Source: Planctopirus ephydatiae (lineage in GTDB: Bacteria > Planctomycetota > Planctomycetia > Planctomycetales > Planctomycetaceae). From it: a stretch of DNA of 64,000 bases. The notes under the pieces are model-generated. The model was not told the origin of the DNA. It was given only the letters and a program-made list of their open reading frames with translations, and searched no databases. Positions 17,701 through 22,602 of the stretch are shown here, piece by piece (the first letter of the stretch is position 1; every line of letters starts with the position of its first letter). The position numbers and the translations under genes are program-made. The stretch is taken from assembly GCF_007752345.1 (NCBI RefSeq), contig NZ_CP036299.1, positions 4,250,001-4,314,000 of the forward strand, read 5' to 3'.

Positions 17701-17924
17701 CCTTCTCCATCATTCCTGCCTTCACCACTTTCCTGAGTTCATCGCTTTGAAGTGATTTTTTGATTCAAGGCGTTCTCTCCGGCACATCCGCAAGTCTTTT
17801 CGGTGGCGGCCAAACACCATTCATCTTGAGGCAATACGCCACTTTCGCTACACCTCGCCTGAAGTCACCGGCCATTTCTGCCGGTTTCCGTGTCGACCAC
17901 TCGACATTTGAGGCAGGATGCCCT

Positions 17925-19664
17925 ATGCAGAATTCTTCACCAACAGCGTCATGCGTTTCGTCAGGAAATGGAATCAGGCCTTTCGATTTCCTTCGTCTGA
18001 CTTTTTTGATCGCGACCCTCTCCCTGTGTACTTTATCTCAGGGAATTGCCGCCGACCGAACATTCCCTTACATCGCCACCATCGATGTCGATGCCGAACC
18101 CGTGCGCAGTGGCCCCGGCCCGCGGTACGACGTCACCAGCGATCTTCCCCGCGGCTCTCAAGTGACCGTCCATCGACACGATCCCGGTGGCTGGGTCATG
18201 ATTGCACCACCTCCGGGCAGCTTCAGTTGGATTGCCGCTGAAGATATCGAACTGGATCCCGCCGATGCCGCACGTCTCAACGAAGCTCAACCTGTCTCAG
18301 GAAAAGTCTCGGCCCGCACCGCCCTGGTATATGTGGGGAGCGAACTGAATCTTTCCCGGCAAGTCGTCCAGCGTCGTCTGACCACAGGTGACAACGTCCA
18401 GATACTGGGCGAGGCCATGCTCCCCGCCGGCAATCGTGCTCTGCGGTACTTCAAAATCTCGCCACCTACGCACGAATACCGCTGGATTACTGCCCGCGCA
18501 CTTCGACCAGAAACCGATCGACCAATATCACAGGGAAGTCCATCCGGCCCTTCTTCCAGCACCACGGCCAGTGCCTCCAACATGACGGGCGCTTCCTCGA
18601 CATCGGCATCCACTCCTGCCAATCCTTTTTCACTCGAGATTCCGCCATTATCGAGTGAGATATCATCAACAGAGGCCATTGATTCGGTGCCGCTGGCATC
18701 CACCAGCACCAGCCGCGAAGAGTCTGCAGCTCCACCAGCGTTTCCTGTCGCTTCGGCTGTAGAACCTGCCCCTCTTCCAGAAATTTCCCGAGCAGAAGTC
18801 ACTCCCCGCACTCGTCGCGAACACCTCAGCCAGATCGACCAGCAACTCCGGACAATGGTGACACAAACTCCGGATCGCTGGGATCTCACCAGAATCGAAC
18901 AGCAGTACCGGCAACTCGCTGCCGACACGACAGACGAAACATTCCAGTATGTTGTCGATCAGCGAATTCACAGTCTCTCTCGATATCAGAAGATCTACAG
19001 CGACTATCAGGACTTCGATCGCATTTTCCGTGAGGCACGCGAGAAAGACGCGGCCCTTCAGGCACAAGCGGCTGTCAATCGGGCAGCACTCCAACAATCT
19101 CCAAACACCCCGCCACTCCGCAATGCTCCACCAGGAAATGCTTACCCTCAGCCCATCGCACAGCAACCGCCCCGGCAGTTGGCTGCCTCTTCTCCTCTCC
19201 CTGCACCAGCAAATTCAATGGTGCCTCCCGGCAGCGCCATTCAACCTGTGAATCATCAGGTGCCTGCAAATCCGCAAGCCACGAGTCCTCAAGCGACCAG
19301 TGCCATCACCCCGGCAAATGCACAAAACATGACCGTTTCAGTCCCTATCCGGGCCACAGCCAGGCCCGCCTCCCAGGGGGCTTCCATTCCCAATTTCGAT
19401 GGAGCAGGTGTACTCAAGAAAGTTCAGCCACGCCCCATCGACTTTCCTCCACTCGCAATTACCACGACCGATGGCAAACTGCTCGCCTACGTCGAAGCTT
19501 CCGATGAACTCATGATTCAACTCGCAGATCAGATTGGTAAGCCGGTTGGTCTCAAAGGAGTTCGAGCTTTTGAAGATCGATTTTCCACCGATGTGATCAA
19601 GGCTCAGTCCTGGCAGCCTGTCATTCTGCAGAATGCCCCGCTCGCTGGCTCTCCGAGGCGCTAA
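17925..19664 (+). CDS. Secreted SH3-domain protein with Pro/Gln-rich linker
   Basis: The 579-residue protein has an N-terminal signal peptide (LRLTFLIATLSLCTLSQGIA, cut before ADRTF). A bacterial SH3 domain follows at about residues 45-110 (VDAEPVRSGPGPRYDVTSD, LPRGSQVTVHR, GWVMIAPPPGSFSWI), with a second, weaker SH3-like unit after it. The middle has a helical charged stretch (RREHLSQIDQQLRTMVTQ), then a long Pro/Gln/Ala-rich region. SH3b domains often bind peptidoglycan or peptides in the cell envelope. It lies 58 bases upstream of the MreB-like gene and may belong to the same transcription unit. ATG 17925 was chosen over TTG 17760. Confidence 0.75.
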   Translation: MQNSSPTASCVSSGNGIRPFDFLRLTFLIATLSLCTLSQGIAADRTFPYIATIDVDAEPVRSGPGPRYDVTSDLPRGSQVTVHRHDPGGWVMIAPPPGSFSWIAAEDIELDPADAARLNEAQPVSGKVSARTALVYVGSELNLSRQVVQRRLTTGDNVQILGEAMLPAGNRALRYFKISPPTHEYRWITARALRPETDRPISQGSPSGPSSSTTASASNMTGASSTSASTPANPFSLEIPPLSSEISSTEAIDSVPLASTSTSREESAAPPAFPVASAVEPAPLPEISRAEVTPRTRREHLSQIDQQLRTMVTQTPDRWDLTRIEQQYRQLAADTTDETFQYVVDQRIHSLSRYQKIYSDYQDFDRIFREAREKDAALQAQAAVNRAALQQSPNTPPLRNAPPGNAYPQPIAQQPPRQLAASSPLPAPANSMVPPGSAIQPVNHQVPANPQATSPQATSAITPANAQNMTVSVPIRATARPASQGASIPNFDGAGVLKKVQPRPIDFPPLAITTTDGKLLAYVEASDELMIQLADQIGKPVGLKGVRAFEDRFSTDVIKAQSWQPVILQNAPLAGSPRR

Positions 19665-19722: not shown

Positions 19723-20769
19723 ATGCTCCACAGGTTACGGCAGTGGCTCAGTCCCGACCTCGCGATTGATCTCGGCAGTGCGAACACACGCATTGCCCTG
19801 TTCAATCAAGGGATCGTGCTCGACGAACCCACAGTCGTCGCTCTTCAGAACGGCTCTCGAAAAATTCTCGGACGCGGTGCCGCCGTGGGAAAACTGGCCC
19901 GGCAGATGCTTGGCCGAACTCCTGATTCGATCTCGGCAGTTCGCCCCATTCGTCATGGTGTCATCACTGATTTCGAACTCTGCGAAGCCATGCTGCGGCA
20001 CTTTGTGCAAAAAGCTGCCAAACAATCACCTGGGTTTCGACCTCGAGTCCTCGTCTCCGTTCCACAATCGATCACATCGGTCGAACGTCGAGCTGTCTTT
20101 GGGACTGCCGAACGTGCTGGTGCTGGTTCGATCTATCTTCTTGAGTCCGCCAAAGCCACGGCCATTGGTGCCGGTATGCCGATTTCCGAACCCTTAGCAA
20201 GCCTGGTCTGCAATATTGGAGCTGGCACTACGGAAGTCGCAATCTTCAGCCTGGGAGAGACCGTTACTTCCTGCTCGACTCGTATTGCCGGTGATGCCTT
20301 CGACGACGCGATTGTCGATTGGATGAGGCAGCGTTTTGGCCTGAAAATCGGCCGTCAGACAGCAGAACATCTCAAACGCGAAGTGGGCTCGGCCTCTCTC
20401 CAGACCAGTGAAAAAGCGACCGAAGTCAATGGCCTCGATGCGATGAGCAGCGTGCCGCGTAAAGTCCTCGTGACCACAGGTGAGGTTCGCCAGGCCATAA
20501 TGGCCCCACTGGCGAAGATCCTTTCCGGGATTCGACAGGTCCTCGAACAATGCCAGCCAGAACTTGTGGCCGACCTCGCCGATACCGGAATGGTGCTCGC
20601 TGGTGGCAGTGCCCTGCTTCCCGGATTAGACGACTTCTTCAGCGAGCAACTGGCCATCCCCGTTCTGATTGCTGAAGATCCCGAACAAACTGTTGTTCGC
20701 GGTCTTTCCATCTGCAGCGAACATCTTAACGAATGGCAATCGTCACTGTTCAGCATTCACGACAGTTAA
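19723..20769 (+). CDS. mreB: Divergent MreB-like actin homologue
   Basis: The 348 residues align end to end with MreB: AIDLGSANTRIALF (phosphate 1), PIRHGVITDFELCE, VLVSVPQSITSVERRA, GTTEVAIFSLG (phosphate 2) and the adenosine motif DTGMVLAGGSALLPGLDDF. MreB forms membrane filaments that organise wall synthesis and cell shape. Two key positions differ from the family: the second Glu of LIEEP is Ser142 and the Asp of DIGGGTTE is Asn164, with Gly to Ala at 167. Both positions are needed for ATP hydrolysis in characterised MreB. Identity as an MreB paralogue is strong; normal ATPase activity is doubtful. MreC- and MreD-like genes follow. Confidence 0.85.
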   Translation: MLHRLRQWLSPDLAIDLGSANTRIALFNQGIVLDEPTVVALQNGSRKILGRGAAVGKLARQMLGRTPDSISAVRPIRHGVITDFELCEAMLRHFVQKAAKQSPGFRPRVLVSVPQSITSVERRAVFGTAERAGAGSIYLLESAKATAIGAGMPISEPLASLVCNIGAGTTEVAIFSLGETVTSCSTRIAGDAFDDAIVDWMRQRFGLKIGRQTAEHLKREVGSASLQTSEKATEVNGLDAMSSVPRKVLVTTGEVRQAIMAPLAKILSGIRQVLEQCQPELVADLADTGMVLAGGSALLPGLDDFFSEQLAIPVLIAEDPEQTVVRGLSICSEHLNEWQSSLFSIHDS

Positions 20770-20842: not shown

Positions 20843-22036
20843 TTGCGATTGAATGATCGACGCTTCTTCAATCCCCTTCAGTTCTGCACTGCGCAGGCCC
20901 TACTGGTCATCCTGACGCTACTGGTTCCATTACTTCCAGCGGGCATGACCAGTGCCTGGAAAACGACAGCTCGTGATGTGGTAGCCCCCGGCTGTCTCAT
21001 CCTGCGGGAACTTCAAGTTCATCTGGCAGCCCCCATTTCCCGCCAAATGACAGGCTTGTTTCCACGTTCGACGACTCACGCTGTTCAAGCTGCTGACTTA
21101 TCCGAAAACACAGCTTCCATCCTTGGGCAGAAACTTGAACTCGAACGCGAGAAAACCCACCGGCTCACAGCCTTACTGCTCACACAATCTCACACCAGCA
21201 ATCAATTCCTACCCGAGACCAGCATCAGCCCACAGTCTTCTCGGATTGTTCCCGTCAGCTTTGAACATCCCGATTTCGAACAGACATCGAACCACTCTCG
21301 ACTTCGCGTCAGCAGCAAAAGGCTCTTCGTGGCAGATCTCATCGAAGCCACTTTGCTGGGCAGCGAACTTTCCAGAAACTGGAAATCCGGCGTCATCATC
21401 GCACGGGGAAGTCGGCAGGGAATCGAAGAGTCGGCATGGGTCGTGAAATCTTCTGAACCATTGCTGGATCTTGGCCATGATCACAACATCGCCCCAGCCG
21501 ATCTCGTACTGACAGCCGGTTTGGTTGTGGTTGGCAAAGTCGAGCGAGTCGGCAATTGGACGAGTACTTTTCTACCAGTCACGCACAGTAGATTCCGCTG
21601 CCGGGCCATGGTGGTTCGCCATGCGGAAAACTCGACAGTTTCGCAGAAGCCCACCATTCTCACGCAAACAATTCTCGCGGGAGATGGCACCCAGACATGT
21701 CGTCTTGAGAAAATCTCTGACAACGTCGGCCTGCGTGTTGGAGATGAAGTCTATTCACTGGAAGACGATGGTCTTCTCAATCGACCACTCTTCCTGGGAA
21801 CGATCACGAAGGCCACATTACCTGCAGAAGATCGTTACTGGGAAGTTCAGGTCACACCGGAATATCTCCATCCCGCATTCACAACGTCAGATCCATATGT
21901 CTCTTCCAGTTCAGTGGTGACCACAGCCTCCACTCCATCGCCACCATTTCCTGCACGACTCAGCATCCTGCGCCTGCGTCCCAATTCATCCCGTTTCGAG
22001 AATGACAGTCCCTCATCACAGCGAGTTCAGCCATGA
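20843..22036 (+). CDS. mreC: MreC-like protein
   Basis: The 397-residue protein has one N-terminal membrane helix (ALLVILTLLVPLLPAGMT, about 13-30), then a helical stretch (about 85-115, GQKLELEREKTHRLTALLL) as in the MreC coiled coil. A beta-rich region follows (VIIARGSRQGIEESAWVVK, DLVLTAGLVVVGKVERVG, RVGDEVYSLEDD). MreC links MreB filaments to the periplasmic wall machinery. Start is TTG with AAGG 4 bases upstream. The stop overlaps the mreD start by four bases (ATGA), indicating translational coupling. The fold assignment rests on pattern and context. Confidence 0.78.
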   Translation: MRLNDRRFFNPLQFCTAQALLVILTLLVPLLPAGMTSAWKTTARDVVAPGCLILRELQVHLAAPISRQMTGLFPRSTTHAVQAADLSENTASILGQKLELEREKTHRLTALLLTQSHTSNQFLPETSISPQSSRIVPVSFEHPDFEQTSNHSRLRVSSKRLFVADLIEATLLGSELSRNWKSGVIIARGSRQGIEESAWVVKSSEPLLDLGHDHNIAPADLVLTAGLVVVGKVERVGNWTSTFLPVTHSRFRCRAMVVRHAENSTVSQKPTILTQTILAGDGTQTCRLEKISDNVGLRVGDEVYSLEDDGLLNRPLFLGTITKATLPAEDRYWEVQVTPEYLHPAFTTSDPYVSSSSVVTTASTPSPPFPARLSILRLRPNSSRFENDSPSSQRVQP

Positions 22037-22602
22037 AGCGTTCGCTATCCTTTGTGGCTCTCTTGTGTGTGGCCTATCTGATTCCCTGCCTCATGTGCCT
22101 GGCTCTTGACCATAACGACCAGTCCAGCTTACTTCCTGGGGCTCAAAATCTCTGGCAAGGATTCACTCTTCCCGCGTTGGGGTTAGGACTCATGGTACTT
22201 GTGGGCCGTTCTAAGCTCCCCGCGTTAGCTCCACTTCTGGCAGCGGCCTGCATGGGATTGTTACTCGATGGACTTTCTGATTCAAACCGTATGGGCCTGC
22301 AGACTATAACCTGCACACTCTTGATGGCCGGTCTCATCTGGTGGCACTCGGCACCTGTTAATCAACCATGGCAATGGATCGTCAGCCTGCCGTTCGCGAC
22401 AGCGCTGGGCTCGACACCCAGCTTCATCAGCTTGAATTTCCCCGCAGGCTGGATCACCCAACTGATCACAGAGGTGACCATCGTTTCATTTGTGGTCATC
22501 GCCGGAACAATCGTCACGCGATTACCACAAATCTATTTTGCCCCCGCACCCAGAGAGGCCTTCTCACTCAGCAACCGCTGGAATCGCCTGACTCCCGATT
22601 GA
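22033..22602 (+). CDS. mreD: MreD-like membrane protein
   Basis: The 189 residues have about five hydrophobic helices (starting SFVALLCVAYLIPCLMCLAL; GLGLMVLVGRSKLPALAPLL; GLQTITCTLLMAGLIWW; VTIVSFVVIAGTIV). The size, topology and GLLLDGLSD turn fit MreD, the inner-membrane partner of MreC. The assignment depends mainly on position: it overlaps mreC by four bases. It completes an mreBCD-like unit. Confidence 0.72.
   Translation: MKRSLSFVALLCVAYLIPCLMCLALDHNDQSSLLPGAQNLWQGFTLPALGLGLMVLVGRSKLPALAPLLAAACMGLLLDGLSDSNRMGLQTITCTLLMAGLIWWHSAPVNQPWQWIVSLPFATALGSTPSFISLNFPAGWITQLITEVTIVSFVVIAGTIVTRLPQIYFAPAPREAFSLSNRWNRLTPD

Follow-up and report, generated by a model that had tools for sequence, protein, structure and literature searches.

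The sole MreB of Planctopirus ephydatiae lacks the catalytic Glu and a Mg2+-site Asp and is probably a near pseudo-ATPase scaffold

P. ephydatiae harbors a full-length, single-copy MreB within an mreBCD cluster, in which the catalytic Glu is replaced by Ser142 and the Asp of the Mg2+ site by Asn164. The gene is under purifying selection and is not decaying, and the loss is not isolated to Planctopirus, as similar losses recur across the class Planctomycetia. Judged largely by analogy with characterized MreBs, the protein probably (about 0.6) binds ATP, is anchored to the membrane, hydrolyzes little or no ATP, and forms a scaffold, slow or static, whose role is conditional. The following features were recognized in the window, that is, the whole analyzed stretch of 64,000 nucleotides, and are given in its coordinates.

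19723..20769, plus strand: mreB, the sole MreB of the genome (348 aa; Pfam MreB_Mbl, single copy, AF2 model)
19723..19749, plus strand: N-terminal helix MLHRLRQWL, candidate membrane anchor (helix 2-9 in the model)
19768..19791, plus strand: phosphate-1 motif DLGSANTR, with D16 kept (275/275 sequences) and with T19S and L23R
20146..20148, plus strand: Ser142 (TCC), replacing the catalytic Glu (C. crescentus E140, S. citri E134; alignment and codon)
20212..20214, plus strand: Asn164 (AAT), replacing the Mg2+-site Asp (C. crescentus D162, S. citri D156; alignment and codon)
20221..20223, plus strand: Ala167, replacing the middle Gly of the phosphate-2 GGG loop (Gly in 108/108 sequences outside the class)
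20227..20235, plus strand: T169-T-E171, kept as the Thr-X-Glu part of the proposed catalytic motif (C. crescentus T167/E169; alignment)
20608..20610, plus strand: Ser296, replacing the third Gly of the GGG adenosine loop (Gly in 106/108 sequences outside the class)
20843..22036, plus strand: mreC, 73 nt past mreB (TTG start, Pfam MreC 63.9 bits)
22033..22602, plus strand: mreD by position, a membrane protein that overlaps the mreC stop (no family match)

The 348-aa ORF matched PF06723 (MreB_Mbl) with 382.5 bits over positions 3-325 of 327, and scored above the cut-offs of TIGR00904 (368.3 vs. 365.75) and NF010539 (384.9 vs. 293). These full-length Pfam and NCBIfam matches bear out a preliminary description, made from the sequence, of an otherwise full MreB. 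The AF2 model showed a confident MreB fold (pLDDT 90.7), although it is silent on ATP, and its best 25 PDB matches were all MreB or Mbl (TM 0.83-0.91). The gene contained no frameshifts or stops. The hydrophobic moment of MLHRLRQWL was 0.71, compared with 0.76 for MLKKFRGMF of E. coli, which is suggestive only (shuffle p 0.06). A search of the closed 5.21-Mb genome with MreB_Mbl revealed no second MreB; the remaining matches were six Hsp70 proteins and one Ppx/GppA protein. A canonical mreB elsewhere in the genome, a point that the preliminary description had raised, is thus ruled out.

The placement of mreB beside mreC and mreD was confirmed, for mreC by Pfam and for mreD by position only; the orthologous gene in P. 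limnophila is named mreD (excerpts of PMC6952346). The gene upstream of mreB (17760-19664) encodes a 634-aa protein with Pro-rich stretches and a weak match to bacterial SH3 that falls short of the Pfam cut-off, and the protein was 54% identical in a distant congener. A promoter scan of the operon yielded nothing beyond chance. The wall and division set of the genome included two SEDS proteins and two transpeptidase-domain proteins, while FtsZ was not found in the genome and RodZ-type HTH_25 had no match there above the cut-off.

When C. crescentus MreB (4cze) was aligned by phmmer, S142 fell opposite E140Cc, the later of the two acidic residues in LIDEP, and N164 opposite D162Cc, the Asp in DIGGGTTE. 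The alignment was ungapped around both residues, and its closest irregularities lay at about residue 50 (gap of 3 residues) and about residue 230 (insertion of 2 residues); therefore, S142 and N164 are not shifted, and the residues and codons of the preliminary description stand. Both residues were common to all four Planctopirus genomes, including one with an 88% identical MreB, and hence are not sequencing errors. It is hardly conceivable that misalignment, a paralogue, or a sequencing error explains the apparent loss: no point in favor of these explanations was found, and the ungapped region, the four concordant genomes, and the restriction of other matches to Hsp70 and Ppx/GppA all speak against them.

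Further near-invariant positions were changed as well, namely T19S, G167A (giving NIGAGTTE), and G296S, in addition to L23R, and these four substitutions sit at or near the nucleotide loops. Changes in Planctopirus were not significantly enriched in the ATP-site blocks relative to other positions (6/40 vs. 3/66, p 0.08). On the other hand, the pocket retained D16, G18, T22, G166, G168, T169, E171, K218, G294, and G295. The retention of D16, K218, T169/E171, and the other glycines makes it very probable that ATP is still bound, although the changes at G167 and G296 could weaken nucleotide binding as such. The claim that both ATP-hydrolysis residues are lacking is therefore correct for the Glu and the Asp but overstated for the site, given the retention of T169, E171, and D16 and the less critical role of the Asp. 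R23 (window 19789-19791) occupies the place of Leu23 in the DLGTANTL of other MreBs; this position may match Lys18 of actin, near the phosphates. At R60 (window 19900-19902), Arg replaces a Lys that seemingly corresponds to K57, an intra-filament contact in S. citri MreB5, and the Lys at position 60 was changed in 84% of the altered MreBs of the class.

Both positions have been characterized biochemically in S. citri MreB5, in which E134, D156, and D12 form the Mg2+ coordination shell according to Pande et al., and E134 is further proposed to orient the attacking water (PMC9195046). D12 corresponds to the retained D16 of P. ephydatiae. The kobs was 0.15 per min in the wild type, 0.01 in E134A, and 0.08 in D156A, which left 7% (approximately 15-fold drop) and 53% (approximately 2-fold) of the ATPase activity, respectively, with both mutants folded (PMC9195046). 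Mutations at these positions thus do impair ATPase activity, as had been noted in advance, with the Asp being less critical, and the term “hydrolysis-deficient” in the preliminary description is an expectation by analogy with S. citri rather than an observation. E134A also formed filaments less efficiently and bound liposomes more weakly, and E140Cc has been proposed as the ATP sensor of the double-filament state (PMC9195046). An “E...T-X-[D/E]” motif was detected in 95.8% of 4,832 non-Spiroplasma MreBs by Takahashi et al., whereas SpeMreB3, a natural MreB without the motif, released Pi very slowly, too slowly to be measured, and still formed filaments (PMC9597168). In addition, processive MreB movement is independent of ATP hydrolysis (Garner 2011, as cited in excerpts of PMC9195046). 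Since the slow MreB3 polymerizes and movement does not depend on hydrolysis, an MreB that holds ATP and barely hydrolyzes it could still serve as a scaffold.

The P. ephydatiae protein is a genuine MreB that would accordingly have turned, or nearly turned, into a pseudo-ATPase. Without the water-positioning Glu, and with Asn in place of the Asp of the Mg2+ shell, ATP hydrolysis would be very slow or absent, compared with a phosphate release of about 0.1 per min by the MreBs of E. coli, T. maritima, and S. citri. MreC/MreD and the wall enzymes that remain may then be carried by slow or static membrane-associated filaments whose turnover is not driven by the nucleotide. These budding cells, with their reduced machinery that lacks FtsZ, apparently no longer require MreB to turn over ATP, which would explain the repeated loss of catalytic residues in a protein that is otherwise still selected, perhaps for a role that is unseen in standard culture. 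Several points temper this picture. Planctopirus filaments may be poor rather than stable, because E134A of S. citri impaired filament formation and liposome binding; D156A of S. citri keeps about half of its activity, which could argue against a complete loss of hydrolysis; and deletion of mreB in P. limnophila produced no growth, shape, or budding phenotype.

The recurrence of these losses was analyzed in 275 MreBs (genus, 4; other members of the family, 144; other members of the class, 19; other members of the phylum, 53; other phyla, 55), of which the outside set comprised top search matches and single family representatives and may under-represent divergent MreBs. E142 was lost in 53/167 class sequences, compared with 6/108 outside (p 6e-8), and D164 in 24/167, compared with 0/108 (p 4e-6); both tests treat related sequences as independent. 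The six outside replacements were all Gln (1/53 in the rest of the phylum and 5/55 in other phyla). Within the class, E142 was lost in 4/4 sequences of the genus, 40/144 of the other family members, and 9/19 of the other class members, and D164 in 4/4, 13/144, and 7/19, respectively, with both residues lost in 18 class sequences. Among the 144 other family members, E142 was replaced by K (21), D (9), Q (3), A (2), V (2), T, H, or S, and D164 by E (5), S (3), T (2), N, H, or Q. Quick LG+G4 trees that left out columns 142 and 164, and in which long branches may attract each other, required at least 12 state changes at E142 and at least 8 (8-9) at D164. Linked loss of the two residues found no support on independent pairs. 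D16, G166, and G294 were kept in all class sequences examined, whereas some altered lineages lost further pocket residues. Alignment with planctomycete MreBs thus upheld the replaced residues, and the class-wide recurrence of related losses is what the preliminary description had missed.

The sequence nearest to Planctopirus MreB (L131) contained A142, E164, and A167; therefore, the change may in part be older than the genus. Both Glu and Asp persist in Planctoellipticum and in most Schlesneria-type sequences, and four have Glu together with D164E. Lys replaced the catalytic Glu in 22/167 class sequences, 21 of which belonged to the family, and this positive charge by the gamma-phosphate, unusual for an ATPase, may represent an alternative type of active-site alteration. 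In one further family of the class, MreBs contained R142, E164, S167, and Q169, so that both halves of the motif were changed; L231, from yet another family, formed an extreme branch (2.81). Arg or Lys at position 23 was present in 22/39 E142-lost and 7/143 E142-kept sequences, and on independent pairs the association of L23R with E142 loss had the same direction (2.2 vs. 0.1 pairs) but was not significant. One tentative reading, possible though not favored, is that budding Planctomycetia repeatedly made MreB a pseudo-ATPase in which a basic R23 or K/R142 replaces Mg2+ ligands and holds ATP in static filaments. If so, selection can keep MreB without ATP turnover in these bacteria, and the P. 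limnophila knock-out probed only the altered form of the protein.

A different explanation is relaxed constraint, in which a dispensable mreB is on its way out, with catalysis lost first and then the gene, as in most of the class. mreB was detectable in 140/398 class genomes by protein search with a first-look filter, and only 20 of these sampled members lay outside the family; more than 250 class genomes outside the family lacked a detectable mreB. Consistent with decay, the P. limnophila deletion had no phenotype (excerpts of PMC6952346), and altered MreBs lie further from the class root than the others (median 1.01 vs. 0.42 substitutions per site, in rows that are not independent), which fits faster change after loss. 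However, mreB dN/dS within Planctopirus was 0.034-0.052, and that of the other altered lineages (0.008-0.104) fell inside the spread of intact class pairs (median 0.033, 5-95% range 0.008-0.124). Between P. ephydatiae and P. limnophila, dN/dS was 0.052 for mreB, 0.235 for mreC, 0.218 for mreD, and 0.006 for dnaB; against a second congener (G296), the values were 0.037, 0.249, 0.281, and 0.005. In the most distant congener (G295), at which synonymous sites were saturated, identity was 88% for MreB and 91% for DnaB but 43% for MreC and 39% for MreD. Within the genus, conservation of MreB thus almost reaches that of DnaB, and MreB is held while its partners MreC and MreD change very fast and drift. 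Together with the undisrupted reading frame and the class-wide retention of D16, G166, and G294, these values disfavor a decaying mreB and make relaxed constraint unlikely.

Alternatively, the rearranged site may still hydrolyze ATP, with T169/E171 activating water and E141 or the gained R23 compensating, in which case the enzyme would be altered rather than dead. The T-X-E half of the motif is kept, actin has Gln rather than Glu at the same position (PMC9597168), D156A of S. citri left half of the activity, and L23R tends to accompany E142 loss. In contrast, E134A alone caused a 15-fold drop in S. citri, and residue 141 varied in the family (E, D, P, S, A, N, G, H, R, T, or Q), which provides no conserved substitute. 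The replacements elsewhere were of diverse chemistry (K, S, V, A, T, H, L, R), which fits loss better than a new mechanism, and the link to R23 was not significant on independent pairs. A still-active site is accordingly rather improbable, and a near pseudo-ATPase scaffold remains the preferred reading.

MreB had been considered a possible FtsZ stand-in in planctomycetes, and the P. limnophila knock-out, in which growth, morphology, and budding were unchanged, was taken to exclude that (excerpts of PMC6952346); non-essentiality in this species was later extended to rodA, pbp2, and other genes (excerpts of PMC10632474). The preliminary description had left out this deletion in a sister species. 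The term “ATPase” had no occurrence in PMC6952346, no discussion of the active site was found in the excerpts of PMC6952346 or PMC10632474, and neither residue loss in planctomycete MreB nor its link to the knock-out result was found in the open-access papers searched. Within these papers, it appears not to have been pointed out before that the MreB of the knock-out species is catalytically altered. This matters because the dispensability of MreB for planctomycete growth and budding was declared from a knock-out in the same genus. As P. limnophila MreB lacks the catalytic Glu and the Mg2+ Asp, the finding may not extend to relatives whose MreB is intact, such as Gimesia. Moreover, about a dozen natural changes of the catalytic Glu under strong purifying selection offer a test of whether a useful MreB needs ATP hydrolysis.

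Compared with the canonical MreBs of E. coli, C. crescentus, and T. maritima, the Planctopirus protein is alike in predicted fold, length, operon, candidate N-terminal helix, and other motifs, but differs in the catalytic Glu, the Mg2+ Asp, the phosphate-2 GGG, and the adenosine-loop GGG. In the same superfamily, D199 and E175 of bovine Hsc70 are presumably equivalent to the altered residues. The Hsc70 active-site variants (D199S, PDB 1qqm) are laboratory mutants of a chaperone. E134A and D156A of S. citri MreB5 concern the same two positions but are engineered single Ala mutants, whereas both positions were changed naturally and fixed in Planctopirus. S. eriocheiris MreB3 is likewise a natural MreB with altered hydrolysis residues that still forms filaments (PMC9597168). 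However, its pattern (Glu to Asp, Thr to Lys, and Glu/Asp to Ser/Thr; Thr/Glu to Lys/Ser in MreB3 itself) is not matched by Planctopirus MreB, in which Glu became Ser, the Mg2+ Asp became Asn, and Thr/Glu are kept. MreB3 also belongs to a wall-less cell with five MreBs, whereas the Planctopirus protein is the only MreB of its genome, and a similar mode of action may be proposed by analogy only. The closest system is P. limnophila MreB (Plim_2620, D5SQI2), a 98.3% identical orthologue in the same operon with the same S142/N164, which has been studied genetically and whose deletion gave no laboratory phenotype (excerpts of PMC6952346).
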